This document shows positions 41,614-59,213 of a stretch of DNA of 64,000 bases, piece by piece. The translations under genes and the position numbers were made by a program. Each line of letters starts with the position of its first letter. Positions within the stretch are counted from its first letter, which is position 1. Source of the DNA: a bacterium (GTDB lineage: Bacteria > UBP7 > UBA6624); assembly GCA_002716355.1 (NCBI GenBank), contig PBAU01000002.1, positions 1-64,000 of the forward strand, given 5' to 3'. The notes under the pieces were generated by a model, which made no database searches, was not told the origin of the DNA, and was given only the letters and a program-made list of their open reading frames with translations.

Positions 41614-42477
41614 ATGAAAAAAACAACAATGAAAAAACAAAAAATATTAGTCATAGGCTGTGGCCAAATGGGATCCGGGATTGCGCAAACAGCCGCAGAG
41701 CATAATCATTCTGTTTTTTTGGGAGATTTGAATAAAAGATACGTGAAACAGGCAATTGAAAAAATTCACCAAAGATGGAACATGGCTGCAGACAAGGGCA
41801 AAAGGCAAAAAGAAGAAATCAGCTGCTTCAAATCTGATTTGCATGTTTTTGAAGATGGGAATTACCAAGGTTTTGATTTCATAATTGAAGCTGTGTCCGA
41901 AGATGAAAAGGTAAAAAAACAAATATTTAAAAAAATAGGCCAAGAATCTTCAGAACACACCATCTTGGGATCCAACACGTCGTCAATATCCATAAACACC
42001 CTTGGAGCAGCAAGCGGCTTTGCGGAAAGGACGATAGGGATTCACTTCATGAATCCGGTACCGGTTATGGAGCTGGTTGAGGTGATAGAGGGGGACAAAA
42101 CCAACATTGACACAATTCAGAAAACTCTAGACTTCATCAAAAGCATAAAAAAGATTCCAGCAAAAAGCAAAGACAGACCGGGTTTTATAAGCAACAAGAT
42201 TCTGATGCCAATGATTAACGAAGCCATACTCACACTCGAATCAGGAACAGGGTCAAAAGAGGATATAGATACCGTAATGGAGTTAGGGATGAAACACCCC
42301 ATGGGCCCTTTAAAACTTGCGGATCTCATAGGCCTTGATACATGCTTGGCTATTATGAATGTTTTGCATTCTGGCTTTAAAGAAGAAAAATATAAACCAG
42401 CAAAGTTATTGGTGGAAAAAGTTGACAATAATGAGCTTGGTAGAAAAACAGGAATCGGTTTCTACAAATACAATTAA
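41614..42477 (+). CDS. 3-hydroxyacyl-CoA dehydrogenase (copy 2)
   Basis: The NAD-binding motif is VIGCGQMGSGIAQTAAEH, followed by LGSNTSSISI, GIHFMNPVPVMELVEVIEG, DRPGFISNKILMPMINEAI and MKHPMGPLKLADLIGLD. The length of 287 residues is standard. It is a clear paralogue of 867-1739, with a more Lys-rich N terminus and two possible start ATGs (41614 and 41629). It begins the plus-strand arm next to the presumed origin and ends just before the LeuC-like gene. Confidence 0.92.
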   Translation: MKKTTMKKQKILVIGCGQMGSGIAQTAAEHNHSVFLGDLNKRYVKQAIEKIHQRWNMAADKGKRQKEEISCFKSDLHVFEDGNYQGFDFIIEAVSEDEKVKKQIFKKIGQESSEHTILGSNTSSISINTLGAASGFAERTIGIHFMNPVPVMELVEVIEGDKTNIDTIQKTLDFIKSIKKIPAKSKDRPGFISNKILMPMINEAILTLESGTGSKEDIDTVMELGMKHPMGPLKLADLIGLDTCLAIMNVLHSGFKEEKYKPAKLLVEKVDNNELGRKTGIGFYKYN

Positions 42478-42481
42478 ACTT

Positions 42482-43747
42482 ATGAGTCAAACATTGGTAC
42501 AAAAAATAATTGCTGAAAAATCTGAAAAAAATAATGTTAACGTCGGTGAGATCGTCATGGCTAAAGTTGATAGAGCAATGGGTCATGACATCACGGGTCC
42601 AGCTGCAGCAGCACTGCTAAGGGAGGCTGGCATCAACAAGGTTTGGAACAAAGACAAGGTTGTTCTTGTTGCCGATCATTTTGTGCCAGCTAAGGATTTG
42701 GCCGCTGCAAAGCTGGGAAAAGAGTTGAGAATTTTTGCAGAAGAGTATGAAGTGGGTCATTACTTTGGTGAAGGCAAAGGCGGAATTTGTCATGTTGTCA
42801 TGCCGGAAGAGGGACTTGTTGCTCCTGGTGAGATTGTTATTGGTGCTGATAGCCACACATGCACAAATGGAGCTGTAGGCTGTCTTGCAACCGGTGTTGG
42901 ACACACGGATCTGGCTGCAGTTTTAGCAACAGGCAAAGTTTGGTTAAGGGTTCCTGAAACCATCAAGGTTGTTTTCAAGGGTTCACCACCACCAGAGGTA
43001 ACACCTAAAGATATGTCTTTGGCTCTTGGAAAGATATTGACTGTTAGCGGTGGCAACTATAAAGTTTTAGAGCTCCATGATAATACCGATACAGGTATAG
43101 ATATGGAGGGTAGATTAACCATTTCAAACATGGCAATAGAGTGGGGTGCTAAAGCTGGAATATTTGTACCAGATGCTATTACCGAAACCTTCACACAAGA
43201 ACGCGTTCAGCATTCTGACTGGAAAATGTTGCAACCTGATGAAAATGCTTCTTACTGCCAGAAAATCACCATAGACACAACCACATTGGAACCATTGGTT
43301 GCTATGCCTTTCAGCCCTGATAATGTAACAACCGTAAGGGAGGTTGAAAAACAAAAGGTAAAAATAGACCAAGTGTTTATTGGTTCATGCACCAATGCTC
43401 GAATCGGAGATCTTAGAGAGGTTCATGGTGTTTTTAAGAACAATCCGAATAAACAAAAAAAAGTCCCTCGTGTTGTTGTTATACCCGGTGATCAAAAAAC
43501 TTACTTAACAGCAATTAGCGAAGGCATAGCAACAGAATGCATATCAAGAGGCTGTGTTTTTTCCACCCCAACATGTGGACCCTGTCTAGGGGGCCATTCA
43601 GGAGTTATGGCTGCTGAGGAGGTGTGTTTGTCCACAAGTAATAGAAACTTTCATGGAAGAATGGGTCATCCAGATTCATTGGTTTATTTAAGTTCCCCCC
43701 TTGTTGCAGCGCATTCCGCTCTTAAAGGTTATATCTCTGCACCGTAA
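42482..43747 (+). CDS. leuC: 3-isopropylmalate dehydratase / homoaconitase large subunit-like
   Basis: This is an aconitase-family hydro-lyase large subunit. It opens with TLVQKIIAEKS and has the GADSHTCTNGAVGCLATGVG block, IGSCTNARIGDLRE (first cluster Cys) and TPTCGPCLGGHSG (the other two cluster Cys), so its [4Fe-4S] site is intact. At 421 residues it is the archaeal/bacterial LeuC2/HacA type. No small subunit is adjacent, so LeuD is probably elsewhere. ATG 42482 lies 2 codons after the dehydrogenase stop. It could pair with the LeuA-like enzyme at 22888-24246. Confidence 0.88.
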   Translation: MSQTLVQKIIAEKSEKNNVNVGEIVMAKVDRAMGHDITGPAAAALLREAGINKVWNKDKVVLVADHFVPAKDLAAAKLGKELRIFAEEYEVGHYFGEGKGGICHVVMPEEGLVAPGEIVIGADSHTCTNGAVGCLATGVGHTDLAAVLATGKVWLRVPETIKVVFKGSPPPEVTPKDMSLALGKILTVSGGNYKVLELHDNTDTGIDMEGRLTISNMAIEWGAKAGIFVPDAITETFTQERVQHSDWKMLQPDENASYCQKITIDTTTLEPLVAMPFSPDNVTTVREVEKQKVKIDQVFIGSCTNARIGDLREVHGVFKNNPNKQKKVPRVVVIPGDQKTYLTAISEGIATECISRGCVFSTPTCGPCLGGHSGVMAAEEVCLSTSNRNFHGRMGHPDSLVYLSSPLVAAHSALKGYISAP

Positions 43748-44365
43748 TTGAAAACTATTTTTCACAATTTTCAACAAAAAAGCTGGATAGACAGTTACTA
43801 CCTGCAGCTACAAGCTACTGAGGATGCTAGAAGGAATGTCGAACATGTATTTTTTTTTGAACATAAAAATGTTATCACCTTAGGAACATCTTCAACCAAA
43901 AGTGATATACCAAATACAGCCAATATTAGGCGTAAAAATATTAGTATTTTTAAAACAAACAGAGGTGGTGAAGCAACCTGGCATGGTGCCGGACAACTTG
44001 TTTTTTATCCAGTTTTAAACATAAAGAAAAGACGGATCAAAGCAACAGAGTTAGTGAAAATAGTGTTACAAGCAACACAAGATGCATTGTTAAAAAAACA
44101 AATTGAAACCTCTATAAACCTCAAGAAACCTGGCTTGTATATTCAAAATAAGAAAATCGTTTCTTTCGGCATGACGATTCAAAAAGGGATAACCATGCAT
44201 GGCGTGTCAGTGAATGTGAACAACAATAATAAAGGATTTGCAGAAATCAAACCTTGTGGGATGCCGCCAAACACTGTTTCTTCCATCAAAGCTGAAACAG
44301 GTAGCAATGAAAGTATAGAATCAATTGCTCAAGAGGTTAAGCTTCATTTGAAAAAGATTTTATGA
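43748..44365 (+). CDS. lipB: Octanoyl-[acyl-carrier-protein] transferase LipB, TTG start
   Basis: LipB transfers octanoate to E2/GcvH lipoyl domains. Family blocks are FFEHKNVITLGTSS, TNRGGEATWHGAGQLVFYPV (the RGG..T.HGPGQ motif), KIVSFGMTIQKGITMHGVSV with the catalytic Lys region, and PCGM with the catalytic Cys. The length of 205 residues is normal. TTG directly follows the LeuC stop. It overlaps lipA by 4 bases. lipB-lipA upstream of the E1-E2-E3 genes supplies their cofactor. Confidence 0.96.
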   Translation: MKTIFHNFQQKSWIDSYYLQLQATEDARRNVEHVFFFEHKNVITLGTSSTKSDIPNTANIRRKNISIFKTNRGGEATWHGAGQLVFYPVLNIKKRRIKATELVKIVLQATQDALLKKQIETSINLKKPGLYIQNKKIVSFGMTIQKGITMHGVSVNVNNNNKGFAEIKPCGMPPNTVSSIKAETGSNESIESIAQEVKLHLKKIL

Positions 44366-45204
44366 CACAACATCCTAATTGGACAAAGATTCAAATCAAG
44401 CCTGGTTCTACAAAATCTCTCATTGACCTTTTTGCTGAACCGGAAGAGTTTAAGATAACCACTGTTTGCGAAGAGGCATGTTGTCCCAATTTGCCAGAAT
44501 GCTGGGGCAAGGGTACAGCCACATTTATGTTGCTTGGAGATACCTGCACAAGAGGTTGTCGTTACTGTTCGGTCAAAAAAGGAATACCTGAACCACCTGA
44601 TCCCAATGAACCCGGGGATTTAGCTGAAACCATTCAAAAAATGAATGCAAAATACATTGTTTTAACAATGGTTGATAGAGATGATCTGATCGATGCCGGT
44701 GTCAGTCACATCATGGACACGGTAAACTCTATAAAGAGAATCAACCCCACAACAAAAATAGAATTACTTGTGGGTGATCTGAATGGTGAACCTGAGCTGA
44801 TTAAAGAGGTTGCCCAATCAAACATAAATGTTTTTTCTCACAATATTGAAACTGTAGAAAGGTTGTATCCAAAACTAAGACCACAAGGCAGTTACCAACG
44901 CGCATTAAAAGTTTTAAGAGAGGCAAAAAAAACAGGTTGCCAAACAAAAACTAGCCTGATTGCCGGGATGGGGGAAACAACAGACGAGGTACTGTCTTTT
45001 TTGAAGGATATTAAAACGATTGAAGTGGATATTTTTACATCAGGACAATACTTGAGACCGTCACAAAACCAAGCACCGGTTATAAAACATCGCAGTCCAG
45101 AATGGTTTGAATTTATTGAACAGCAAGCAGAAATGTTAGGGATTAAATCCAAGTGCGGACCCCTGGTAAGATCCAGCTACATGGCTGAAACTCTATATAA
45201 ATAA
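44362..45204 (+). CDS. lipA: Lipoyl synthase LipA
   Basis: This radical-SAM enzyme inserts two sulfurs into octanoyl groups. The auxiliary cluster ligands are in CEEACCPNLPEC, the SAM-cluster motif is CTRGCRYC (C-x3-C-x2-C), and the C-terminal auxiliary-cluster serine is in RSSYMAE. Other blocks are GTATFMLLG and VFSHNIETVERLYP. The length of 280 residues is normal. Its iron-sulfur ligands are all intact, in contrast to the Hdr-like operon 6 kb downstream. Confidence 0.98.
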   Translation: MTQHPNWTKIQIKPGSTKSLIDLFAEPEEFKITTVCEEACCPNLPECWGKGTATFMLLGDTCTRGCRYCSVKKGIPEPPDPNEPGDLAETIQKMNAKYIVLTMVDRDDLIDAGVSHIMDTVNSIKRINPTTKIELLVGDLNGEPELIKEVAQSNINVFSHNIETVERLYPKLRPQGSYQRALKVLREAKKTGCQTKTSLIAGMGETTDEVLSFLKDIKTIEVDIFTSGQYLRPSQNQAPVIKHRSPEWFEFIEQQAEMLGIKSKCGPLVRSSYMAETLYK

Positions 45205-45233
45205 TACCCCCCCAGGGTATAGTTATTTTTTTT
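45204..45233 (+). terminator. Possible intrinsic terminator or attenuator between lipA and E1alpha
   Basis: ATACCC (45204-45209) and GGGTAT (45215-45220) form a 6-bp stem with a 5-base loop, closely followed by an eight-T run. Just beyond, GTTATTTTTTT and AAAAAAATAAC (45222-45244) make an 11-bp inverted repeat. The stem is short, so termination may be partial. Confidence 0.4.
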
Positions 45234-45245
45234 AAAAAAATAACA

Positions 45246-45251
45246 TATAAT
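45246..45251 (+). promoter_or_regulatory. Perfect -10 hexamer (TATAAT) close to the E1alpha ATG
   Basis: TATAAT ends 8 bases before the ATG at 45260, and no Shine-Dalgarno is visible there. Initiation 6-8 bases downstream of the hexamer would give a nearly leaderless mRNA. The -35 position falls in a T-rich stretch and is weak. Confidence 0.4.
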
Positions 45252-45259
45252 TACCAGTT

Positions 45260-46399
45260 ATGAATTCGAAAAAAATAAATCAGAAACAAAAAAAATCATT
45301 TGGGGTCGATCAACAAACAGCATTTGAAGTTCTGTATCATCCATTATTGAAAGCCAGGTTGCTTGACGAAAGAATGGTCAAGCTTTTTAATCAAGGTAGA
45401 TTTGGTGGTACATATTTTAGTGGTTGTGGTCAAGAGGCAACAAATGTTGGTGCAGGTGTTCACATGGTTGAAGGTGACATACTTGCTCCATCACATAGGC
45501 AACTAGGGGCCATGGTTGCTAGAGGTATAACCGCTAAAAGAGTGTTAGCACAAGTTTATTCAACAGCTGAATCGCCAGATGGAGCTCAGCAGCACCCATG
45601 TCACTTTGGAGACCCGGAACTTGATATTGTTAGTCCCACAGGACATGTGGCGATACAGGTTGTTTTAGCTGCAGGTTCAGCCTACGCATATCTTTTAGAT
45701 GCGTACAGAAAAGGCGATGTGAAAATCAATTGGGACAAAGATGGAATCGTATGGGCTGGAAACTGGACGCTTAAAAAGGGATCCAAGCTCAATTGCGCTT
45801 TTGCATTTTTTGGAGATGGCGCAACAGCAAAAGGGGATTTTCATGAGTCTGTGAATTTTGCTGGAATACACAAATTACCAGTAATTTACATGGCTGAAAA
45901 TAATATATGGGCAGAGTCTGTTCACGTTACCGAGAATGTGCCTGTTGAGAGGTTAAGCGATAGAGCAGCTGCATATGGAATGCCCGGAGTTACTGTTGAT
46001 GGTCAGAATGTTTTTGAGGTTTATCACGCAGTGCAGGAGGCAGTTGAACGTGCTCGCTCTGGTGGCGGGCCAACCCTTGTTGAATGCTTGACTTATCGTT
46101 ACCATGGACATTCCATGATTGATCCAGCTGATTATCGAACAGATGAAGAGGTTGAAAAATGGAAAAAGAGAGATCCTTTAATTGTTTTTGAACAGGTAGC
46201 TAAAGAGGATGGGATTTGGAGCGATAAACTCGCAAAGGAAACAGAAGACAGAATCAATAATGAGATTGAAGAGGCGATTGATTGGGTTGAAGATGAATCA
46301 ACTAAACCCAAACCCGATCAATTCATTGATGTAACCTTTAGAGATCCAAAATTTAATGATGCAATTCGCAAGAGATGGGAGAAGAGAAAAAATGTCTAG
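45260..46399 (+). CDS. 2-oxo acid (pyruvate-type) dehydrogenase E1 component, alpha subunit
   Basis: The ThDP-binding motif is FFGDGATAKGDFHESVNFAG through MAENN, followed by YRYHGHSMIDPADYRTDEEV (the phosphorylation-loop region in eukaryotic homologues). The length of 379 residues fits heterotetrameric E1 of the pyruvate or branched-chain complex; the substrate cannot be resolved. It is the first gene of E1alpha-E1beta-E2-E3. The next ATG overlaps its stop by 8 bases. Confidence 0.93.
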   Translation: MNSKKINQKQKKSFGVDQQTAFEVLYHPLLKARLLDERMVKLFNQGRFGGTYFSGCGQEATNVGAGVHMVEGDILAPSHRQLGAMVARGITAKRVLAQVYSTAESPDGAQQHPCHFGDPELDIVSPTGHVAIQVVLAAGSAYAYLLDAYRKGDVKINWDKDGIVWAGNWTLKKGSKLNCAFAFFGDGATAKGDFHESVNFAGIHKLPVIYMAENNIWAESVHVTENVPVERLSDRAAAYGMPGVTVDGQNVFEVYHAVQEAVERARSGGGPTLVECLTYRYHGHSMIDPADYRTDEEVEKWKKRDPLIVFEQVAKEDGIWSDKLAKETEDRINNEIEEAIDWVEDESTKPKPDQFIDVTFRDPKFNDAIRKRWEKRKNV

Positions 46400-47423
46400 T
46401 AAAAATATTAGTTATATCCAGGCAATTACAGACACAATGTGGTCTGAAATGGAAATTGATGAAACGGTTTTTGTCTTAGGTCAAGATTGTGGAAGATATG
46501 GAGGCGTGTTTAAAGCCACAGCCTGGAGGTCGGAAAAAGACGGCAAACCTGATTTAAGTAAAAAAATGTATGATGAATTTGGACCATTGAGAGTTCTTGA
46601 TGCACCTTTGGCAGAAAATGCAATCATCGGTGGTGCAATTGGTGCCGCTTTGTCTGGTTATAGGCCAATTGCTGAGATTCAATTTATGGATTTTATTGAT
46701 TGTGCTATGGGCCATATCGTGAACCAAGCAGGCACTATCTCTTTTAAGACTAATGGTAGTTGGTGTTGCCCAATTACAATTCGCACCCCTTATGGTGGAG
46801 GTATTGGCGGTGGTATGACCCATAGCCAAAGCAATGAAGCTTGGTTTTGTCATGCTGGTGGTCTAGTTGTAACCGCACCCAGCACACCAAGAGATGCAGC
46901 AGGGCTTTTAAGATCCTGCATTAGGGCAGATGATCCTTGTGTGTATATTGAGCACAAAGGTTTATATCGAGCTATAACTGGTGATGTGCCTGATGATCCC
47001 AACTTCACTATTGAATTAGGAAAAGGAAAAGTTGTTCGAGAGGGTAGTGATATTACATTGATTTCTTATGGCGCCATGTTGCACAAATGCTTAAGTGTTG
47101 CAGAAAAACTTGAATCTGAAGGCGCCAGTGTTGAGATTATTGATCCTCGAACATTATGGCCAATGGATGAAGATTTAATGATTAACTCTGCTTGTAAAAC
47201 AGGCAGGTGTGTGGTTGTTGCTGAGTCACATGCGGCGTATGGTTTCACTAGCGAGGTTGCCGCAAGAGTGCAAGAGGGTGCCTTTTGGAACCTATTAACA
47301 CCAATTCGTACTATTGCAGGACCAGACACACCCTTCCCTTTTGAACCGGGAATGGAGGCTGCTTATCTGCCTTCAGATGATGAAATATACAACTCTTGTA
47401 AAAGAGCGTTGGGGGACGGATAA
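46392..47423 (+). CDS. 2-oxo acid dehydrogenase E1 component, beta subunit
   Basis: This is the transketolase-like partner of E1alpha. It has EMEIDETVFVLGQDCGRYGG, DAPLAENAIIGGAIGAALSG, EIQFMDFIDCAMGHIVNQAG, RTPYGGGIGGGMTHSQS and VEIIDPRTLWPMDEDLM. I use ATG 46392 (MSSKNISYIQAITDTMWSEM), preceded by a GAAGAG Shine-Dalgarno. An upstream ATG at 46356 would run far into E1alpha. The resulting protein is 343 residues. Confidence 0.94.
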   Translation: MSSKNISYIQAITDTMWSEMEIDETVFVLGQDCGRYGGVFKATAWRSEKDGKPDLSKKMYDEFGPLRVLDAPLAENAIIGGAIGAALSGYRPIAEIQFMDFIDCAMGHIVNQAGTISFKTNGSWCCPITIRTPYGGGIGGGMTHSQSNEAWFCHAGGLVVTAPSTPRDAAGLLRSCIRADDPCVYIEHKGLYRAITGDVPDDPNFTIELGKGKVVREGSDITLISYGAMLHKCLSVAEKLESEGASVEIIDPRTLWPMDEDLMINSACKTGRCVVVAESHAAYGFTSEVAARVQEGAFWNLLTPIRTIAGPDTPFPFEPGMEAAYLPSDDEIYNSCKRALGDG

Positions 47424-48661
47424 TGCCAATTAAAGTTCCAGTTCCCGATCTAGGTGTTTCTGTTGTTGAAGCCAAAGTGGCCGAATGGAAGAAAAAAATA
47501 GGTGATGATGTTGTTCGTGATGAAGAGATTGGTATATTGGAAACAGACAAGATAACAACCCCAATTACAGCATTCAAAGAAGGGAAACTTGTAGCACTTT
47601 TTGCAAAACCTGGGGATACCGTTCCCGTGGGACAAACTATAGCAATTATCCAAAAAGTTGGAGAAAATTTATCCCAAGAAGATATTGATAAGTTGAATCC
47701 ACATGGTTCAAAACCGACACCGGAACCGACACCGGAACCGACACCGGAACCCATTAAAACAACTGTTGACACCAAACGTCAAGGCTCAAATCCCCAAACC
47801 CTTAAAACCAGTCCAGCTGTTAGAAGGTATGCGAGTGAGAATGACATTAACCTGGTTGATGTTCAAGGCACTGGCTCTAATGGAAGAATCCAAATGGCTG
47901 ATGTTTTAGCGTTTAAAAAACCAATCAAATCTACGGGTTTAAATTTAGAACCTGATAATACTGAATCCAGAAGTCCTGTCAGCAGCTCCATGGCTGTTAT
48001 GGCAAAACATATGGTTCACTCAGTGTCAACCAGCCCGCATTTTTTAATTGTTGATGAACTTGACATGACTGAAACATTGGCTGTATATAAGAATTTAAAA
48101 CCAAAATTGCAAGAAAGCGGAATCAGGTTAACACTCATGAGCTTTTTTGTCAGAGCAGCAGCACAAGCGCTTAAGGATTTTCCAAGAATGAATGTTTCTC
48201 TTGAAAAAGACACTTTGATAACCAAGAATTATAGAAATATAGGAATGGCAGCTAGTGTTGGGGAAAGTTTGATAGTGCCTGTTATCAAGAATGCTGATCT
48301 TTTAAATATTGAAAATCTTGCAGCTGAAATCAACAGATTGTCTATTGCCGCTCAGGAAAACAAATTAACAATGCAAGACATTACAGGTGGAACATTCACA
48401 ATCACCAATGCAGGCATGTTTGGAGGCCCGTTATTTTCAGCACCTATTATCAATCAGCCTGAAGCGGCTATATTGGGTATTCACACAGTGAAAGAAAGAG
48501 CTGTTGTTGAGAATGGAAATATTGTTGTAAAACCAATGGTTTATGTATCCCTTTCAAGTGATCACAGAATGGTAGATGGCGTTTTAGCTGTTAGGTTTTT
48601 ATGCAGGGTTAAAGAGTTGCTTCAGCATCCAGGCTTAATGGCAACTGGACCTCTTTTATGA
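47423..48661 (+). CDS. Dihydrolipoamide acyltransferase (E2 component)
   Basis: Residues 1-75 form one lipoyl domain, with the lipoylated Lys 43 in ILETDKITTPI. A repetitive Pro-Thr-Glu linker is followed by a peripheral-subunit-binding domain (AVRRYASENDINLVDVQGTG, approx. residues 132-165) and the catalytic core, which ends with the active site SLSSDHRMVDGVLAVRFL. At 412 residues it is a normal one-lipoyl E2. The ATG overlaps the E1beta stop by one base, and the E2 stop overlaps the E3 ATG. Confidence 0.95.
   Translation: MPIKVPVPDLGVSVVEAKVAEWKKKIGDDVVRDEEIGILETDKITTPITAFKEGKLVALFAKPGDTVPVGQTIAIIQKVGENLSQEDIDKLNPHGSKPTPEPTPEPTPEPIKTTVDTKRQGSNPQTLKTSPAVRRYASENDINLVDVQGTGSNGRIQMADVLAFKKPIKSTGLNLEPDNTESRSPVSSSMAVMAKHMVHSVSTSPHFLIVDELDMTETLAVYKNLKPKLQESGIRLTLMSFFVRAAAQALKDFPRMNVSLEKDTLITKNYRNIGMAASVGESLIVPVIKNADLLNIENLAAEINRLSIAAQENKLTMQDITGGTFTITNAGMFGGPLFSAPIINQPEAAILGIHTVKERAVVENGNIVVKPMVYVSLSSDHRMVDGVLAVRFLCRVKELLQHPGLMATGPLL
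47714..47749 (+). repeat. Three 12-bp tandem repeats in the E2 linker (PTPE codons)
   Basis: The unit ccgacaccggaa repeats three times in frame, giving PTPE x3 between the lipoyl and subunit-binding domains. Such repeats lengthen the swinging arm and are prone to copy-number change. Confidence 0.95.
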
Positions 48662-50034
48662 AATATGACTTGGTTGTGATAGGTGCTGGCCCAGGTGGCT
48701 ATGTGTGTGCTTTACGGGCAGCACAACTCGGCTTAAAGGTAGCTGTTGTTGAAAAGAAAAAAGCGGGTGGAACATGTTTGAATGTTGGTTGCATACCATC
48801 TAAAGCTTTATTGGATTCAACAGAAATTTTTTCTGAAATTTCACCAGGGAACGAACATGGAATAGAGGTCAGCAAAGCTAACATTAACTGGTCGACCCTG
48901 CAATCCAGAAGGGAAAAAATTGTTACCCAATTAACAGGTGGTGTTGAATTTCTTTTAAAAAAGGCTAAGGTTGATTATTATCAAGGATTTGCAGATGTGA
49001 AATCTTGTTATACGGTTGTTGTTGGCAGGAATAATCTTGCAACTAAAAATGTTGTTTTGGCCACCGGATCCACACCTGTAGAAATTCCATTTTTGCCATT
49101 TGATGGAGAACATGTTATAAGTTCAACCGAAGCTCTTAATCAATTCAATATACCCAAAAGTCTTATTGTTGTTGGAGGAGGTTATATAGGGTTAGAAATG
49201 GCCAGTGTTTACAGCCGAATCGGAACCCATGTCACAGTAATTGAGATGATGGATCGGATTGTTCCATTGATGGATACAGATATAAGCAAGCAGTTGCAAA
49301 AATCATTAAGAAAACAAGGCATCAAGTTTAAAACATCAACCAAGGTGACCGATTGCAAGAAAACAAAAAATAAAATTATTTTAAATTTAGAAAAAAACAA
49401 AAAAACAAGCACACAGGAGGCTGATCAAGTTCTTGTTGCTGTAGGTCGTCGGCCTAATGCAGGGGGTATTAACCTCAATGCTTTAGGAGTCACAATGGAT
49501 GAGAGGGGGTTTGTTTCTGTAAATCAAAACATGGAAACATCCATACCTGGTATTTATGCCATAGGCGATTTGGTTCCAGGTCCCATGCTTGCACATAAAG
49601 CCAGTGAGGAAGGGGTGGTTGTTGCCGAAAGAATTGCTGGCAAGCAAACAACACTTGACTATAGCTTGATTCCATCTGTAGTTTACACACACCCTGAAGG
49701 CGCTTCTATTGGTAGAACCGCAGATGAGCTTAAAAAAGCCAACGTAGAATTTAAAACAGGTATGTTTCCGTTTTCTGCATCCGGAAGAGCTATGGCTATA
49801 GGTTGTACTGAAGGTTTTGTTAAGGTGTTAGCAGATTCCAAAACCGATAAGGTTTTAGGGGTCCATATATTAGGGCCGAAAGCTTCAGAATTAATATCTG
49901 AAGCAGCAATGGTGATGGGCTTCTGTGGCACTGCTGAAGACATAGGTGTGTTTATTCACGCGCACCCAACACTTTCGGAAGCATTAAAAGAAGCCGCTCT
50001 TGAAGCTTCTGGTCATGGTGCGATTCATACCTAA
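48658..50034 (+). CDS. lpdA: Dihydrolipoamide dehydrogenase (E3)
   Basis: This flavoprotein disulfide reductase reoxidises dihydrolipoamide with NAD+. FAD binding is VIGAGPGGYVCALRAAQLG, the redox disulfide is GGTCLNVGCIPSKAL, the NAD site is VVGGGYIGLEMASVYSRIG, the second FAD motif is IYAIGDLVPGPMLAHKA, and the base is in FIHAHPTLSEAL. The length of 458 residues is normal. Confidence 0.98.
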   Translation: MKYDLVVIGAGPGGYVCALRAAQLGLKVAVVEKKKAGGTCLNVGCIPSKALLDSTEIFSEISPGNEHGIEVSKANINWSTLQSRREKIVTQLTGGVEFLLKKAKVDYYQGFADVKSCYTVVVGRNNLATKNVVLATGSTPVEIPFLPFDGEHVISSTEALNQFNIPKSLIVVGGGYIGLEMASVYSRIGTHVTVIEMMDRIVPLMDTDISKQLQKSLRKQGIKFKTSTKVTDCKKTKNKIILNLEKNKKTSTQEADQVLVAVGRRPNAGGINLNALGVTMDERGFVSVNQNMETSIPGIYAIGDLVPGPMLAHKASEEGVVVAERIAGKQTTLDYSLIPSVVYTHPEGASIGRTADELKKANVEFKTGMFPFSASGRAMAIGCTEGFVKVLADSKTDKVLGVHILGPKASELISEAAMVMGFCGTAEDIGVFIHAHPTLSEALKEAALEASGHGAIHT

Positions 50035-50044
50035 GGAGAAAACA

Positions 50045-50224
50045 ATGTTTGGATTTATTTTTGCTTTAGGACCAACAGAAATTGCTTTAATTGCAGTTGT
50101 TGTTTTGGTTCTTTTTGGACCCAAAAAAGTTACAGAATTCGCAAGATCTCTAGGAAGAACTAGTGGTGAATTCAAAAAAGGACTTGAAGAGGGTAAAAAG
50201 ACAACAAAAGATAAAGAGGAGTAA
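50045..50224 (+). CDS. tatA: Twin-arginine translocase subunit TatA
   Basis: This 59-residue protein has a short N-terminal membrane helix (LGPTEIALIAVVVLVLF), the FGPKK hinge, an amphipathic helix (VTEFARSLGRTSGEFKKGLE) and a charged tail. These are the TatA/E hallmarks. The start is ATG 50045, preceded by an AGGAG Shine-Dalgarno (50034-50038) that overlaps the E3 stop. No separate TatB is visible in the window. Confidence 0.95.
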   Translation: MFGFIFALGPTEIALIAVVVLVLFGPKKVTEFARSLGRTSGEFKKGLEEGKKTTKDKEE

Positions 50225-50233
50225 AGCTGCTGT

Positions 50234-50944
50234 ATGCAAGACAAAAAAATGCCTCTGTCCGAGCATTTTGCTGATCTGCAAAAAACTTTATTAAACAGTC
50301 TTCTTTATTGTTTTTTTGCCTCTGTTTTGCTGTCCTTTTTTCATAAGGAATTATTAATTGCTTTTCAAAAACCACTAAACAATGTCGGAATTACTGCGTT
50401 AAATGTTTTATCTCCACAAGAGGGGTTCCTCATCCCCATCAAGTTGGTTTTAATGTGTGGTTTAATTGTGGCAACACCTTTGATTGTTAGAGAGGTTACC
50501 TTATTTGCCTGGCCCGCATTAAGGCAAAATGAAAAACAAATACTTCAAACTTTTGTAATCCCAAGTTTTTTAATTGCACTTGTTGCAGCGTTTTTTGCTT
50601 GGCAGGTTTTAATACCAATATCAATTGAATTTCTGCTCAAGGCAACAACAAACAATAACCTACAAGCAACATGGACATTGCAATATTGGTTTGTTTTTGT
50701 TCAATCTATGTTGATTGCCTCTGTGGCTGCTTTTCAACTGCCAATAGTCATGGGGGTTTTAGCTAAATTCGGCTTAATTGACTCACATACGGTCCGGGAA
50801 AAAGGCCCACATGCAATTATTGGGCTATTGATATTATCTGGTTTTATAACCCCTCCAGATGTTGTCACGCAGATCATTATCGCCATACCATTAATCCTTC
50901 TGTTTTATTTCAGTATTTTCATAGTCAAGGCAAACGAGGATTAA
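50234..50944 (+). CDS. tatC: Sec-independent translocase TatC
   Basis: This six-helix protein recognises twin-arginine signals. It opens PLSEHFADLQKTLLNSLLYC (the 'HLxELRxR' segment), has NVLSPQEGFLIPIKLVLMCG with the conserved Glu of the periplasmic cap, and ends GFITPPDVVTQIIIAIPLILLFYFSI. The length of 236 residues is normal. It lies 9 bases after tatA. Confidence 0.96.
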   Translation: MQDKKMPLSEHFADLQKTLLNSLLYCFFASVLLSFFHKELLIAFQKPLNNVGITALNVLSPQEGFLIPIKLVLMCGLIVATPLIVREVTLFAWPALRQNEKQILQTFVIPSFLIALVAAFFAWQVLIPISIEFLLKATTNNNLQATWTLQYWFVFVQSMLIASVAAFQLPIVMGVLAKFGLIDSHTVREKGPHAIIGLLILSGFITPPDVVTQIIIAIPLILLFYFSIFIVKANED

Positions 50945-51001
50945 ATCTAAAATTAATTCAGGTTTTTCAATAGAATTAAAAAGTTGTAGATTTGTACAAA
51001 T

Positions 51002-51006
51002 GGAGG
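51002..51006 (+). promoter_or_regulatory. Strong Shine-Dalgarno (GGAGG) before the Hdr-like operon
   Basis: GGAGG lies 7 bases before the ATG at 51014, the best spacing. It supports active translation of the first gene of the operon. Confidence 0.8.
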
Positions 51007-51013
51007 AAAAATT

Positions 51014-53335
51014 ATGGCACGAATAGGTGTTTTTCTTAGCAAAGAGGGAAAAGGTTTAGATCCGCTTAACCTACAAACCATTGCTGACAGATTGGTTGAG
51101 GAAGTGCAGGAGATAAACCATGTTTTTATACATGAAGACCTCAACACAGTTCAAGGTTTGGAAGCAATATCACAAGAGATCAAAAATCAAGATATTGGCT
51201 ATGTTGTTATCGGTTGTGGCTCTATTGATCAAAGGGAAGAGAATATCAGAAAAACATTGAATACAGCTGGCATTAACGAATACCTTTTGGAGGTTGTTAA
51301 TCTTAAAGAAATGGTAGCTAACGTGCATTCAGAAGAGCCCGAGAAAGCCAATGAAAAAGCTTTTCAGCTATTGAAAACAGCAGTTATCAAGGTTGAGCAA
51401 AGTAAACCTTTAGAAAAAACACCAATGAGGGTGGAACAACAAGTTTTAGTTGTTGGCGGCGGTGTTGCAGGCATGACTGCTTCTTTGAGAATTGCAGATG
51501 CTGGCTACAGTGTTGTTTTAGTTGAAAAGTCACCTGCATTAGGTGGAAAAGTTGCCTCTCTCAAAAATCTTTGGCCAAAACTCGAAGAGGCAGATGACTT
51601 AATGAGGAATCTTTCAATCAGTTGTCATCAACATGAAAATATAGTTATTTATGATTATTCAGAAGTTAAATCTATAGACGGAGTTCGTGGGGATTTTGAT
51701 GTTGAAATAGTCAGAAAACCAAGATTTGTTCAAAGTCAAAAAATTGTAAATTTTGAAAAAATTACAGAATCATTAAAAACGGATTTTCCAAATAAGCACA
51801 CCGGAGGCAGGACGGTGAACAAGGTTCTTTATCAACCATACGCAGGCTGTGTCCCACCATTGTTTTTGATAGACCCAGAAAATATAAATCATCCAGATGT
51901 CAAAAAGTTAATCACACTTGTTCCTGATGGAACTGTGAATCAGAACGAAAAGGAAAAAATCGTTCATGAAAAAGCAGGTGCTGTGATTATGGCTTTTGGA
52001 GCTGGGATGATGGATTGTTCTGGCTTAACAAATTTAACTGCTGCAAATAGTGAAAATGTACACAGTGCTAGTGATTTTGAATTTTTGAATTTCAAAAAAG
52101 ACGAAGAAATGTCGTTGTTATGGGTTGCAGATGCAGGAAGCAATGATCCCAAGAACGGTGTTGCTTACGCTTCCGAAGTGCCTTTGATGACCTGTGTCAA
52201 ACAGGCTATTTTTGCTAAAAAAATGTCTAATGGAAAAATTCACACAACAGTTGTTTACTCAGATAGGAGATCCAGAACAAAAGGATATGAAGAATTTATC
52301 AAAACCGCTGAGGAAAAATACCAGGTACAGATGGTTAGAGGCGCTGTTTCAAATGTAACTTCAAAGTCAAACGGGTTGTCTGTCAGCTTGCACGATTTAA
52401 TACAGGGCAAAGAGCAAAAGGTATCAGTTGACAAGGTTGTTTTGGCACAAGAGGTTGTTGCACACGATGATTCACAACATCTAGCAAGTATTGTTGATAT
52501 AGGTCGTGACGAAACAGGCTTTCTTGCTGAAACCCATCCTTCTCTGGAGCCATGTTCAACCAGTAATTCTGGAGTTTTTGTTTGTGGAGACTGTGCGTCT
52601 CCCGGTGATATCAGAGCTGCTGTTTTGACAGCTGAATCAGCAGTTGCTAAAGCTATGGCCGTTTTGGCCCAAAAAACAAGTGAGCCCTACAGGTTAAAAC
52701 AAAAAGATGAGCAACTTGCACGATTTGATGCTCCAGCAAAAGAGGTTTCTCCTGAGAGCTTTCAAACAAATGATGAAGGTGGCATGAATTACACAAGATT
52801 AAATAATGTTTTTGGTAAAACTGAAAGCGGTGTGTCCATACCAGCCTCACCAACCAGAAACATTGAACTTGCTGGTTGGGAGCTTTCTAAGTCAATTGCA
52901 GAAATTGAAAATATTTGGACAGATGCAAAAAATGACAACTGGGAACCAAGAATAACAGGATTTGCATCACAGTATGGTGGTTATCCACTTTTGGAAACAC
53001 TTGGAAGAGAGGAGGTTTCTTATTCATCTTGTTTTAGATTTCTGAGAGTGCGCTCAACAGCACATCTGGATCCACTCCTTGTCCTCAAAAGCTTCTTTAA
53101 TGGTGCAGATGGTGTGTTTATTATTGGTGGACCTTTAGGCAAAGGCAAGTTTCACAACGACAACTACCTTGCAAAAAGAAGATTTAAAGCATTAGAAGGG
53201 GTGCTTGATGCTGGTGGGATTGAGCCAGATAGAGTCAAGATTTTATTTGTAGATTCTCACCAAATTGATGAAGTTGCTGATCAGTTGCAAAAATTCCATA
53301 ATGCTGTCTCTAGCTTAGGCCCTTTAGGTATTTGA
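51014..53335 (+). CDS. HdrA-MvhD-like fusion protein lacking iron-sulfur ligand cysteines
   Basis: The domain order follows heterodisulfide reductase subunit A fused to an MvhD/FlpD-type C terminus. The FAD site is preserved: VLVVGGGVAGMTASLRIADAG (144-164), VVLVEKSPALGGKVA, and a second FAD motif near SGVFVCGDCASPGDIRAAV. The cluster sites are gone. The N-terminal RIGVFxCHCG is RIGVFLSKEG (3-12), and the FPTxDCxxC region is LWPKLEEADDLMRNL (186-200). The ferredoxin CTGCGxC is KIVNFEKITESL (243-254), and the second ferredoxin region (~575-610) has no Cys. In the MvhD part C-x-W-C-S-Y is FASQYGGY (650-657), and GCHPGDCHY is GGPLGKGKFH (705-714). Only 9 Cys remain in 773 residues, and just one pair (C524, C527) is close together, not at a known cluster site. 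Confidence 0.82.
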   Translation: MARIGVFLSKEGKGLDPLNLQTIADRLVEEVQEINHVFIHEDLNTVQGLEAISQEIKNQDIGYVVIGCGSIDQREENIRKTLNTAGINEYLLEVVNLKEMVANVHSEEPEKANEKAFQLLKTAVIKVEQSKPLEKTPMRVEQQVLVVGGGVAGMTASLRIADAGYSVVLVEKSPALGGKVASLKNLWPKLEEADDLMRNLSISCHQHENIVIYDYSEVKSIDGVRGDFDVEIVRKPRFVQSQKIVNFEKITESLKTDFPNKHTGGRTVNKVLYQPYAGCVPPLFLIDPENINHPDVKKLITLVPDGTVNQNEKEKIVHEKAGAVIMAFGAGMMDCSGLTNLTAANSENVHSASDFEFLNFKKDEEMSLLWVADAGSNDPKNGVAYASEVPLMTCVKQAIFAKKMSNGKIHTTVVYSDRRSRTKGYEEFIKTAEEKYQVQMVRGAVSNVTSKSNGLSVSLHDLIQGKEQKVSVDKVVLAQEVVAHDDSQHLASIVDIGRDETGFLAETHPSLEPCSTSNSGVFVCGDCASPGDIRAAVLTAESAVAKAMAVLAQKTSEPYRLKQKDEQLARFDAPAKEVSPESFQTNDEGGMNYTRLNNVFGKTESGVSIPASPTRNIELAGWELSKSIAEIENIWTDAKNDNWEPRITGFASQYGGYPLLETLGREEVSYSSCFRFLRVRSTAHLDPLLVLKSFFNGADGVFIIGGPLGKGKFHNDNYLAKRRFKALEGVLDAGGIEPDRVKILFVDSHQIDEVADQLQKFHNAVSSLGPLGI

Positions 53336-53338
53336 AAC

Positions 53339-54232
53339 ATGAATGAAATGAGAATAACAATCCAACGAGAAGCCAGAAGGCTTTTACAGCTGCAAAAAGT
53401 CAGCGTTGTTATAGGTTATGAGGTTGGTCCATACCCTGGCACGACCGCTCCCTGTTTCGCTTTCACCCCAGATGACGCTCAAAGAATTGTTTTCAATAGC
53501 TTTTCGTCTATCAATTTAGCCGTTTATCTTCCAGGCATTACTGGAAATGTTGGCATAGTGGCCACACCTGCAACTGTAAGATCCATCAAAGAGCTCGAAA
53601 AAGACGGCTTGGTGAATCGTAAAAATCTGCATATTATTGGTGTGAAATTTCCAGGAATATTAGATCCTCGACATTTAAATGTTGACAGAGAGAACGAAAA
53701 TACGTTATCAGTCAATGAGCATCCAGAAGCTTTATGGGAGTGGGCACTTCATGATCTTTACGAGGAGCCAGAAGATTATGACATACTTGTTGAGCCCAGG
53801 TGGATGAATGACCTCAGTAAAGCCGGCAAACTAAAAAAACCCACCCCAAACCGTACCAGCGTTGAAAGGTTAGAGCAGATGACTCATCACGAAAGAAGGC
53901 TATACTGGATGAGTTATTTTGAAAAACATAGGCATTCAGACCATAATAAAAATTTATTTCCTTCCACTTATGCGGGAGGAGACCATTTAGAAAAGTTTAA
54001 ATATATCAAATCTGCATATAGCTCGAACGAGCTTTTTTACGAACATCTTTCATGGGTTTACCAATCGATGGGTCGAGCTTCTGGCTTCGATCTCTCAGAC
54101 CTTACAGAGGACATGAATCAAATACCCCTTTCAACAATTCGAGCTTGGGCTGCTAGAGAGTTTAGAAAAAATTTTAATTACAGGCCAGGTGGGGAAGAGC
54201 CAAATCCATTACTGAAAAAGGAAAACATATAA
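53339..54232 (+). CDS. FrhB/HdrB-associated iron-sulfur protein homologue with all ligands lost
   Basis: The fold pattern is that of the FrhB-like dicluster subunits beside HdrA in anaerobes: RRLLQLQKVSVVIGYEVG, VRSIKELEKDGLVNRKNLHI, and VERLEQMTHHERRLYWMSYF just before the first cluster. Where those have RCxRCYACRNACPLCYC, this one has KHRHSDHNKNLFPSTYA (196-212). Where they have GRCVDCGACERACPxGIPL, it has GRASGFDLSDLTEDMNQIPL (245-264). GVPCxGM is GVKFPGI. One Cys (C39) remains in 297 residues. The gene is intact and starts 3 bases after the HdrA-like stop. Confidence 0.75.
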   Translation: MNEMRITIQREARRLLQLQKVSVVIGYEVGPYPGTTAPCFAFTPDDAQRIVFNSFSSINLAVYLPGITGNVGIVATPATVRSIKELEKDGLVNRKNLHIIGVKFPGILDPRHLNVDRENENTLSVNEHPEALWEWALHDLYEEPEDYDILVEPRWMNDLSKAGKLKKPTPNRTSVERLEQMTHHERRLYWMSYFEKHRHSDHNKNLFPSTYAGGDHLEKFKYIKSAYSSNELFYEHLSWVYQSMGRASGFDLSDLTEDMNQIPLSTIRAWAAREFRKNFNYRPGGEEPNPLLKKENI

Positions 54233-54233
54233 C

Positions 54234-55256
54234 ATGAGCGACTATATTTTGTCAAAAGCTAAATTGAAATATTGGTTAGAGGATGTCAGAAAACGAAATG
54301 AACTATGGGCACCCGTTGGATCCAAAGGCGCTGTAAGTTATTTGAAAAATCCAAAAGGTGAAAATGTTGCAACAGATTTTACAAATAGTTTGGATTGTCC
54401 AAAGTATATATTTTGCCCACAGCAAGATGCCATATGCAACTATGAGATACAAGGAAGAGGCAAGGTTGCTATTGAGGAAGTTGAGCTCGATGTGACTCCT
54501 AGAGTTGTATTTGGCTTACGGCCACCAGACATTAGAGGCATCGAAATTCTCGATGCTTACCTGTTGAAAGATCAAATTGATCGGAGATACGAGGCAAGGC
54601 GAAAAAATACAATAAATATTTGTCTTGGTTACCATAACCCACCTCCTTGCTGTTTCGCAGAGTCTGTAGGTGTCGATCTTTTTCCCAAGAGTGGCTCTGA
54701 CATTTTGTTAACTGATATTGGTAGGAGTTATTATGTTGAAACACTTTCTGAAAAAGGAGATAGCCTGATCTCGGAACATTTCAATGAAGCTGATGATATT
54801 GTTCGAAATGAAGCCTGGGATATACAGAAGGGAAGTGAAGGAAAAACAAATTTTGATTTAAATTTGAATCGTTGGCAGGATTTCACTGATACTGAAATTT
54901 ACACTTTGCCGTATTGGGATGAAATTTATTTGGGCATTATTGCTGATTCTGTCGCAACCAGGTATTTTTACTCAGGAACTTATTTTAAGATTGTTGATGT
55001 TAACAGTGGAAACAAGGGCACAAGGTATAAAACCTGGACAACAATGTATTCTCCAGGCTTTTCAACATTGGCAAATGGTTATGACTACAAGCCAAGCCTC
55101 AAGGAAAAATTTAAAGATTGGATATTAGAAATGTTTCATTTTTTTCCAAAAAGACATGGTTTTATTGGCTGTTCAGGTGCGCACAGGTGCATTGCAGGCA
55201 TGACCACCAAGCATGACCTGAGAAAAATTATTTCTAATGTGGACTTTGGAATATGA
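54234..55256 (+). CDS. HydB / anaerobic sulfite reductase A-like protein, cluster ligands mostly lost
   Basis: This resembles the 4Fe-4S dicluster beta subunits of sulfhydrogenase and AsrA (~340 residues). GIRPCDARAI is GLRPPDIRGI (94-103), and the ITEKGxxLL-type block is ETLSEKGDSLI (169-179). The first ferredoxin, CLGCGxCTxVCPTCYCFDI, is YLGIIADSVATRYFYSGTYF (232-251) with no Cys. RxWDSCMFPxF is KTWTTMYSPGF. The second ferredoxin keeps two of four ligands: GCSGAHRCIAGMTTKHDL (312-329), with C313 and C319. The length is conserved at 340. It is one base from the previous stop, and its stop overlaps the next ATG. Confidence 0.75.
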   Translation: MSDYILSKAKLKYWLEDVRKRNELWAPVGSKGAVSYLKNPKGENVATDFTNSLDCPKYIFCPQQDAICNYEIQGRGKVAIEEVELDVTPRVVFGLRPPDIRGIEILDAYLLKDQIDRRYEARRKNTINICLGYHNPPPCCFAESVGVDLFPKSGSDILLTDIGRSYYVETLSEKGDSLISEHFNEADDIVRNEAWDIQKGSEGKTNFDLNLNRWQDFTDTEIYTLPYWDEIYLGIIADSVATRYFYSGTYFKIVDVNSGNKGTRYKTWTTMYSPGFSTLANGYDYKPSLKEKFKDWILEMFHFFPKRHGFIGCSGAHRCIAGMTTKHDLRKIISNVDFGI

Positions 55257-56029
55257 ATTTAGTACCAAAGATAGCAAATATAAAAAATACAGAACGGGAT
55301 GGTCGTTTAGGGTCAATATCATTTGATTTTGATGGGGACCTGAAGGCCGGACAGGTTTTCAAGATAGGGACCTTTGGAAAAGGAGAAACAACTGCTTGGG
55401 TCATAGATGCGGAAGATAAAACCGTAACCGTTTCGTTTCTGGATAACAACCCTGTCACACATAAAATCATGCTCCTTCCCACAGATGAATGCATTACTGT
55501 AAGAGGGCCATTTGGCAATGGTTTTTCACTTTTAGATGAAAGAAATATTTTATTAATTAGTCAAGATGATGGAATATTAAGCCAAAAGAAACTTATTAAT
55601 GATTTGCTCCAAAATGGTAATCAGGTCAGCTTGCTCCACTTCACCTCTTTTCCAAAAGATATATTTATGAGCTCTTCACTTAAAAAAGCTGTATCAGATG
55701 ACTCTCCTATCAATGGTGAAATTATCGATATGACAAAAAAAGGACCACAGGATTTAGATACGTTTATCAAATCTTGCATCAAGGCAAGTTACACCTCCGG
55801 AATAAACGCAGTGGCTCTATCAGGCAATGAGAATTTTCAGCAGTCTGTGTCGAGGGTTCTGGAGAAAACAATGATTAAAGATAAAAGCATACAAATTTTA
55901 TTTAATCGTAATTTTGTTTCAGGAATGGGTTGGTCTAACAAGGATCTTTACGGTACCACAAACATATGGAAAGAAGGGCCAGTATTTACATTAGATCAGG
56001 TTCGAAGATTCCCAGGTGTATTCATTTAA
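55253..56029 (+). CDS. HydG/AsrB-like flavoprotein homologue lacking the [2Fe-2S] ligands
   Basis: This matches the ferredoxin-reductase-like gamma subunits (258 residues, family ~270). GDxVGVRGPYGNGFP is DECITVRGPFGNGF (78-91), and the C-terminal C-D-GPVF-like end is WKEGPVFTLDQV (239-250). The [2Fe-2S] motif CGVGxCGxC...C is VSGMGWSNKDLYGTTNIW (222-239) with no Cys. The FAD motif RxYSxSS is AWVIDA, and the NAD GGxGxAP motif is SQDDGILS, so the flavin and nucleotide sites are also eroded. It shares ATGA with the upstream gene and overlaps the convergent rsmA by 8 bases. Confidence 0.72.
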   Translation: MNLVPKIANIKNTERDGRLGSISFDFDGDLKAGQVFKIGTFGKGETTAWVIDAEDKTVTVSFLDNNPVTHKIMLLPTDECITVRGPFGNGFSLLDERNILLISQDDGILSQKKLINDLLQNGNQVSLLHFTSFPKDIFMSSSLKKAVSDDSPINGEIIDMTKKGPQDLDTFIKSCIKASYTSGINAVALSGNENFQQSVSRVLEKTMIKDKSIQILFNRNFVSGMGWSNKDLYGTTNIWKEGPVFTLDQVRRFPGVFI

Positions 56030-57130: not shown

Positions 57131-58054
57131 ATGAATCGTTTAAAAAGCATAAATCTACGTTTTTTGTTGATGCCCTTTGTTCTGGCTTTTATTTTTGCTT
57201 TTGAGGATATTGACACTAAAGAGAAGTCAAGCGAGGAGTTATGGGTTGTAAATTTTTTAGCTGAAGGAGTGGTTTTACCACCCGGTCAGATAGATTTGCC
57301 AAAAATAACTATCGATTACACAAAAACTGACCATGCCAAAATTGCTAAGAATCTTTTGGGTGCAGACATAGAGGCAGAAACCTCTGTCGGTTTAACCAGA
57401 GTTATCGATCAGGGTTTTCAAACATATGCAACCGAGGACGGCCGAGAATTATTGGTTTTTCCTCATGGTGGAATCACATTTAACCATCCTTTTGCCGGGG
57501 TGCATGAGTTGTTCCCATTAACCCGCACACAGGCAGAAAGTGTTCTGGATATTTTTAATAACAATTTTAATTATTTTCCAGAAGATGCCTCACTGGTCAA
57601 TACAGGAGAAATTAAACATCCAGAATATCAGTCTTTCAACAACAGTCAAGGATTACCGTTTGGTTACATTTATGAATATGGGCGTTATTTTAAAAATGTT
57701 CTCATTAAAAATGATGTAGTCAGGGCTTTAGTGGTTGGCGGAAGAGTTTGGGAATTTTCATTTTCCTGGGGCGATCAGCCTGTTGAGATTGAAGACACTG
57801 AGGCAACAATAATCCCAGCATGGTCTGCAGTTAAGGATGCCATCGAGTATGCGTATAGGAATTTTTACGCTGGAGAATATTACGCAGATGTATTTGTTAC
57901 CAAGGTTCAACTTGTTTATACTTTTGATGGCCTACAGGAGGCATGGAAAAAGGATGAACCAAAAAGATTAGTTCCGGCATGGGTGGTCCAGATAAATAAA
58001 TCGAATGAAATTATCTTAGAAGCTTTCACCGGTCAAGTTATTCCCATTTATTAA
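57131..58054 (+). CDS. Exported or anchored protein of unknown function
   Basis: The N terminus has one hydrophobic segment (LRFLLMPFVLAFIFAF), probably a signal anchor. The ~280-residue outer part is acidic and beta-rich. The C terminus, LVPAWVVQINKSNEIILEAF followed by TGQVIPIY, resembles the closing strands of PepSY/YycI-like domains, but I cannot assign a family. A TATAAA hexamer lies 11 bases before the ATG, without a Shine-Dalgarno. Its stop overlaps the likely ATT start of glycerate kinase. Confidence 0.6.
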   Translation: MNRLKSINLRFLLMPFVLAFIFAFEDIDTKEKSSEELWVVNFLAEGVVLPPGQIDLPKITIDYTKTDHAKIAKNLLGADIEAETSVGLTRVIDQGFQTYATEDGRELLVFPHGGITFNHPFAGVHELFPLTRTQAESVLDIFNNNFNYFPEDASLVNTGEIKHPEYQSFNNSQGLPFGYIYEYGRYFKNVLIKNDVVRALVVGGRVWEFSFSWGDQPVEIEDTEATIIPAWSAVKDAIEYAYRNFYAGEYYADVFVTKVQLVYTFDGLQEAWKKDEPKRLVPAWVVQINKSNEIILEAFTGQVIPIY

Positions 58055-59213
58055 AAATACAAAGAATTTTTTAATTGCTTTAGATAGCTTTAAGGGAACC
58101 ATGAGTTCCACCGAAGCAGGAGATGTTGTTGCCCAGGCTATACTTCAAAAATACCCTAAATCAAATGTATTTGTTAAGAATTTTGCAGATGGTGGTGAGG
58201 GAACGGCAGATGTCCTGTTGGATTATTTCGATCATGAAGCTCACAAGGTTAAAACCCAAGGTGCCAACGGGAAGGATATTGATGCTTATTGGTATTTTTT
58301 GAAAAAAGAAAAAGTAGCCCTGCTAGAAATGGCTTCAATTGTCGGGATTTCAATGATTCCCAAGTCCGAATTAGATCCAGAGGCTTTAAGCACTTGCGGT
58401 CTTGCTCCAGTTATTATTGACATTCTTGAAAAAGGTATTAGAAAAATCTGGTTTACTGTTGGCGGAACCTCAACGGTTGATGCTGGACTTGGCTTGCTGA
58501 AAGGGATGGGCGTTTCCACACGGGAAGGGACATTTCCTAATTCATTATTAGCAGTAAAGAAAGATATTTTTTTTGATTTTAAAAATTTAGATTCGATGAT
58601 TTCAGATCTTAAAATACACCCAGCAAAAGGCAGCTGTTTGTTTCCTGATGTTTTTTTTGATATAATAGCTGATGTTCGCGCTCCTCTTTTAGGTAAGCGA
58701 GGTGCTGTTTTGGCTTTTGGCAAGCAAAAGGGTGCTACCCCTAAAAATATTCCTATTTTGGAACAAGGGATGGCTGATTTTGCTTGTATGGTTGAAGCCA
58801 AAGTCGAGGACTCGACCTTTTTGCAAACAAAAGGTTTGGGTGCTGCTGGCGGCATCGCTCTTGGGCTGGCCTTGCTTTTTAACGTGAATATTAAAAATGG
58901 AGCTGATTTTGTTATTGACAAAATGGGGCTCAGGGACGAGATGAGTAATTTTGATTTTGTGATAACAGGAGAGGGACAGTTTAACTCTCAAACCAAACAA
59001 GGGAAAGGGCCATGGTCTATTGCATCACTAGCTGTAAGTAATAGCACCCCAGTTTTGATTATTAGTGGTTTGAAAATTAAAGAAAGAAACAAAACAAAAG
59101 ATTTTTCTTTCTTGGAGGTTTCTCAGACAGTCCCAAGAAACAAAAAAGAGGCACAATTAAATCTTTTCCAAGCTATGAGTGGATGGCTTGATGATAATGA
59201 GGTGAAAAAATGA
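58050..59213 (+). CDS. Glycerate kinase (type 1, GarK/GlxK-like), probable ATT start
   Basis: This enzyme phosphorylates D-glycerate. The conserved N terminus FLIALDSFKGTMSSTEAGDV, FADGGEGTADVLLDYF, FTVGGTSTVDAGLGLLKGMG and FVITGEGQFNSQTKQGKGP are family blocks. ATG 58101 would remove the essential first strand and the DSFKG motif. In the open frame between the TAG at 58017 and 58101 there is no ATG, GTG or TTG. ATT at 58050, overlapping the upstream stop, is the best start (ATT 58074 is the alternative). The length is then about 387 residues, as usual for the family. Confidence 0.88.
   Translation: MKNTKNFLIALDSFKGTMSSTEAGDVVAQAILQKYPKSNVFVKNFADGGEGTADVLLDYFDHEAHKVKTQGANGKDIDAYWYFLKKEKVALLEMASIVGISMIPKSELDPEALSTCGLAPVIIDILEKGIRKIWFTVGGTSTVDAGLGLLKGMGVSTREGTFPNSLLAVKKDIFFDFKNLDSMISDLKIHPAKGSCLFPDVFFDIIADVRAPLLGKRGAVLAFGKQKGATPKNIPILEQGMADFACMVEAKVEDSTFLQTKGLGAAGGIALGLALLFNVNIKNGADFVIDKMGLRDEMSNFDFVITGEGQFNSQTKQGKGPWSIASLAVSNSTPVLIISGLKIKERNKTKDFSFLEVSQTVPRNKKEAQLNLFQAMSGWLDDNEVKK

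Follow-up and report, generated by a model that had tools for sequence, protein, structure and literature searches.

Background

The operon described here raises the question of what a complex of Hdr- and Flx-type subunits can do once the cysteines that would hold its iron-sulfur clusters have been replaced, and whether such an operon encodes a working system, a relic or an artefact. It lies in a 64,000-nucleotide stretch of DNA (the window) on contig C2; the assembly, from the uncultured bacterial candidate phylum UBP7, is 1.26 Mb long and 87% complete. An initial annotation had read the locus as an Hdr/hydrogenase-like operon devoid of nearly all its cluster ligands, retained for a non-redox, single-flavin or structural role, perhaps in an O2-exposed or iron-poor habitat.

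Results and discussion

Gene layout and family assignment

Four intact open reading frames were found on the forward strand at exactly the positions first given for the operon, 51014-56029, and the strong Shine-Dalgarno that had been claimed is present before hdrA as a GGAGG region at 50991..51013 (tggaggaaaaattATG). The genes had been described as overlapping, which holds for the last pair only (4 nt); the other two junctions are gaps of 3 and 1 nt. The sister genus has a 4-nt overlap at all four junctions, that between tatC and hdrA included.

The first gene (51014..53335) encodes HdrA (residues 1-640; NCBIfam HdrA2, E 4e-116; PDB 5odc_A, E 3e-68) fused to FlxD/MvhD (residues 641-773; PDB 5odc_D, the MvhD chain, E 2e-18). 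The second (53339..54232) has no significant match in family searches of Pfam and NCBIfam; its profile matches the gene's counterparts in 25 genomes from beyond UBP7, and in many genomes these matches sit between mvhD and hydB. The third (54234..55256), which is HydB/AsrA-like, matches NCBIfam ShyB/HydB and the sulfhydrogenase beta subunit (PDB 9nez_B, E 3e-13), and the fourth (55253..56029), which is HydG/AsrB/PyrK-like, matches NCBIfam PyrK/AsrB, the HydG families and PDB 9nez_C (E 5e-6).

Ilyobacter polytropus carries, in order, hdrB, hdrC, hdrA, mvhD, two genes for 4Fe-4S proteins and one for an FAD/NAD(P)-binding protein. Its hdrA-mvhD pair is matched by the first UBP7 gene along its length, and its last three genes are matched one to one by the second, third and fourth, at the FlxC, FlxB and FlxA positions (BLASTP 1e-15, 3e-28 and 8e-9, respectively). 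The same hdrA-flxD-flxC-flxB-flxA block is found in most other genomes compared, and in Desulfovibrio vulgaris the same subunit set occurs with FlxC and FlxD fused (PMC10920352). The second gene is called FlxC here by position and size. By gene order and subunit matches the operon is thus best read as the hdrA-flxDCBA half of a FlxABCD-HdrABC NADH/disulfide oxidoreductase, without HdrB and HdrC, in place of the hydrogenase-like operon first proposed; the names HdrA-MvhD, HydB/AsrA-like and HydG/AsrB-like stand by homology, and it is the 'FrhB-like' gene that holds the FlxC position.

Each UBP7 gene has its counterpart in the FlxABCD-HdrABC block, in the same order, but HdrA and FlxD are fused, the cluster ligands and the FlxA NAD motifs are lost, and HdrB and HdrC are missing from the operon in all three UBP7 genomes in which it occurs. 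No gene for a CCG-domain protein was found in the window genome or in UBA7824, both incomplete; the third genome, NIOZ-UU106, has a 348-amino-acid frame for a CCG/4Fe-4S protein that is unlinked to the operon (C44:18325-19302; L149, L150). The described HdrA classes differ in the number and place of their Fe-S clusters (PMC12054007). With type Ia HdrA, the HdrA-MvhD fusion of HdrA2, the UBP7 protein shares its domain order, its best NCBIfam match and the E356/K409 equivalents, yet it lacks any canonical ligand set. The FlxB- and FlxA-type subunits likewise resemble by sequence the beta and gamma subunits of sulfhydrogenase (HydB/HydG, PDB 9nez) and AsrA/AsrB, but no hydrogenase large subunit adjoins them and their ligands are lost; the sole hydrogenase-family match in the window genome is below cut-off and lies near nuoB. 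In a tree of FlxB, the UBP7 sequences fall among operon-type sequences on a long stem, the backbone being poorly supported. In other phyla, HdrA-like open frames of about 1000-1490 amino acids, of partial similarity only to ordinary HdrA, adjoin flxDCB (L139 (G176), L133 (G219), L145, L146, L144).

Loss of the iron-sulfur ligand cysteines

The three UBP7 proteins of each subunit were aligned with a reference set from ordinary operons (10 HdrA, 12 MvhD/FlxD, 14 FlxC, 13 FlxB and 10 FlxA), and a column was counted as a conserved cysteine column when at least 85% of the ordinary homologues have cysteine there. There are 67 such columns: 26 in HdrA, 5 in FlxD, 16 in FlxC, 15 in FlxB and 5 in FlxA. 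Over the three genomes, cysteine is kept in 10 of 201 cells, against 529 of 1131 (47%) at other, equally conserved columns (Fisher p = 4e-35, indicative only, since related genomes do not supply independent cells). The loss is thus specific to the ligands and not a product of general divergence. By subunit, the kept cysteine cells are 1/78 in HdrA, 0/15 in FlxD, 0/48 in FlxC, 9/45 in FlxB and 0/15 in FlxA, against 312/588, 50/129, 57/105, 36/93 and 74/216, respectively, for the other conserved residues. The near-total replacement first noticed in one genome is thus confirmed across three.

In HdrA-FlxD, 30 of 31 cysteine columns are lost in all three genomes, the remaining one being Cys in NIOZ-UU106 only; all 16 are lost in FlxC, all 5 in FlxA and 12 of 15 in FlxB, where C140, C313 and C319 are kept and two new cysteines, C130 and C139, are invariant across the three genomes. 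The three kept FlxB columns cannot form a canonical four-cysteine cluster. Relatives in other phyla keep their cysteines, among the matches examined.

These remaining residues bear on the idea that metal is still bound, through other ligands: a new mononuclear or Zn site in FlxB, of which H134, C139, C140, C313, H317 and C319 may be part, or clusters held by Asp, Ser, His or Glu. All six FlxB residues are invariant across the three genomes, and at 11 of the 67 former ligand columns all three have Cys, His, Asp or Glu. Most former ligand positions, however, are now Ser, Ala, Gly, Phe, Leu or Ile, and the canonical set of four cysteines survives nowhere; we regard such sites as improbable.

Distribution and selection

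The operon is present in all three UBP7 genomes (the window genome, UBA7824 and NIOZ-UU106), which represent two genera, and in each it is flanked by tatC on one side and by a convergent rsmA-like gene on the other. Protein identity between the genera is 36-60% across the subunits. For the pair formed by the window genome and UBA7824, the four genes in order have dN/dS values of 0.040, 0.020, 0.033 and 0.036, beside 0.038 for the neighbouring dihydrolipoyl dehydrogenase, 0.070 for rsmA and 0.181 for glycerate kinase; with synonymous change at 0.9-2.5 per site, near saturation, these values are low but approximate, and comparison with the sister genus meets full saturation at synonymous sites.

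At values of 0.02-0.04 the operon is not decaying. Pseudogenes, an artefact of sequencing or binning, and a recoded cysteine codon would each give a trivial account of the missing cysteines, and we found no evidence in support of them; the low dN/dS, which rules out pseudogenes, the absence of internal stops and the same gene order in three separate assemblies leave this kind of explanation a negligible chance. Recoding was rejected on the further grounds that the replacements are of many kinds and that the host's other Fe-S proteins have ordinary cysteines. The genes are retained, as had been held from the one sequence.

Former cysteine columns with neither a gap nor Cys number 63, and at 39 of them both genera have the same replacement; from genus to genus, replacement residues are conserved to the same degree as other residues. 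The cluster-free state is therefore most likely older than the split of the two genera. No cysteine-poor relatives were seen outside UBP7 among the matches examined from 386 sampled genomes, nor in two small phyla that have close ordinary relatives; when about 85,000 species were scanned with just two peptide patterns, UBP7 alone came back, but the patterns are specific to UBP7 and the result is weak evidence of absence. A literature search, which did not reach subscription papers, likewise found no cluster-free Hdr/Flx complex, in agreement with the earlier statement that none was known to have been described, and in the literature searched UBP7 is mentioned as a phylum only in passing.

Iron-sulfur proteins of the host

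The window genome encodes six radical SAM proteins, NuoB of complex I (by family match), ferredoxin-domain proteins and a haem-copper oxidase. The cysteine motifs of its SdhB-like protein, its lipoyl synthase and its IPMI/aconitase-family protein are in place; those of NuoB were read in UBA7824 only. On this evidence host-wide avoidance of Fe-S proteins was rejected, and the iron-poor habitat proposed at first is not borne out. An O2-exposed habitat is plausible; alone it does not explain a loss that is confined to this operon.

The flavin and nucleotide sites

Retention of conserved residues in HdrA is uneven: 67% in the FAD Rossmann region, 57% in the thioredoxin-reductase-like part, 46% in the N-terminal domain, 39% in the inserted ferredoxin and, lowest of all, 24% in the C-terminal ferredoxin. 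E356 and K396 of the UBP7 protein do not vary across eight aligned sequences, UBP7 and ordinary HdrA together; they align with E356 and K409, to which stabilisation of FAD N5 is ascribed and which are reported as a hallmark of bifurcating HdrA (PMC12054007). A GD motif, common in flavoproteins, stands where ordinary HdrA has GxCQ or similar. The flavin site had been thought retained, and the FAD motifs and the E356/K396 pair bear this out: at the level of sequence, both features of a flavin-bifurcating HdrA are present, and the UBP7 protein probably binds FAD. The Fe-S cluster next to the FAD, a further feature of such enzymes, would be lacking. Cysteines 373, 386, 390 and 391, beside the HdrA lysine, are D, A, P and L in all three genomes; from their position beside K409, they would be the ligands of the flavin-proximal cluster.

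In FlxA the NAD(P)-binding GG and GPP motifs are lost: GG at 104-105 and PP at 192-193 are replaced in all three genomes, save for one D105-type position, and as read from sequence the usual NAD(P)H site is absent. The RGPxGN motif is kept, and the FAD S-S-P motif has probably gone as well. AlphaFold models from three-row alignments are of too low confidence to use, with a mean pLDDT of 28 for FlxB and 43 for HdrA-FlxD.

The losses in FlxA lend some weight to the view that the proteins are pseudoenzymes, making up a cofactor-free structural or regulatory complex in which the HdrA FAD is absent or is unused in turnover. FlxA has lost its NAD and cluster motifs and probably its FAD motif, the ferredoxin domains persist in chain length only, and the other conserved columns of FlxB and FlxA are kept at just 34-39%. 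The residues of the HdrA FAD site, E356 and K396 included, have nevertheless been kept over long divergence, and we consider a purely structural role unlikely. Among the roles offered by the initial annotation we favour, by a little better than an even chance, that of a single-flavin enzyme.

Gene neighbourhood

Upstream of the operon on the same strand, Pfam and NCBIfam identify a run (43748..50944) of lipB, lipA, the E1 alpha, E1 beta, E2 and E3 (dihydrolipoyl dehydrogenase) genes, tatA and tatC; the sister genus keeps the order of its lipA-tatC part (L033). The genes downstream of the operon are conserved too, so a connection with lipoate chemistry is no more than a lead; the linkage may be one of conserved gene order only, and the lipB-tatC run is given as context. 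An IPMI/homoaconitase-family large subunit (42359-43747) adjoins the lipoate genes and scores above the NF001614 and TIGR01343 family cut-offs and below the LEU2 and LeuC equivalog cut-offs. A 307-amino-acid protein (57131-58054) and a 954-amino-acid protein (59210-62074), both conserved across UBP7, are without a match in Pfam at E 1e-5 or in NCBIfam at E 1e-8.

The sHdr sulfur-oxidation systems combine Hdr-type genes with lipoate-binding proteins (PMC6067878). The UBP7 locus is alike in having an Hdr-type flavoprotein gene near genes for lipoate and dihydrolipoyl dehydrogenase, and differs in that its lipoate genes, with LipA and LipB, form part of a 2-oxoacid dehydrogenase cluster and that HdrB/C genes are absent from the cluster.

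A proposed single-flavin complex

On the reading that we prefer, the operon encodes a derived FlxABCD-HdrA complex that became fixed in the UBP7 lineage, in which the HdrA FAD would be the only likely redox centre and would limit the complex to two-electron chemistry. The subunits would still fold and assemble, no canonical [4Fe-4S] or [2Fe-2S] cluster could form, and the usual NAD(P) binding by FlxA would be gone. A single HdrA flavin, presumed to be occupied by FAD, would then carry out two-electron chemistry, with FlxD, FlxC, FlxB and FlxA acting as scaffold and as substrate-binding surfaces. Since the one-electron wires are missing, neither electron bifurcation nor transfer to ferredoxin would be possible. 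Against the single-flavin reading, the retention of K409/E356 fits one-electron bifurcation more naturally, though the wires for it are missing.

More tentatively, and with rather less confidence than we place in the single-flavin reading, it is possible that a whole bifurcation-type complex was converted from Fe-S wiring to a single-flavin enzyme before the genera split, and that its electron partners may be thiols or lipoyl groups in the upstream 2-oxoacid dehydrogenase. Single subunits that have lost a cluster are known from other systems. If the conversion took place, it would be, to our knowledge, the first case in which clusters were removed wholesale and the assembly was retained. We found no description of near-total removal of clusters from every subunit of an electron-relay complex, with the flavin site kept and the genes held under strong selection. 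The UBP7 operon is a natural experiment in the capacities of Hdr/Flx scaffolds that lack Fe-S relays, and in the ways in which anaerobic machinery is turned to new use where a lineage has a terminal oxidase.
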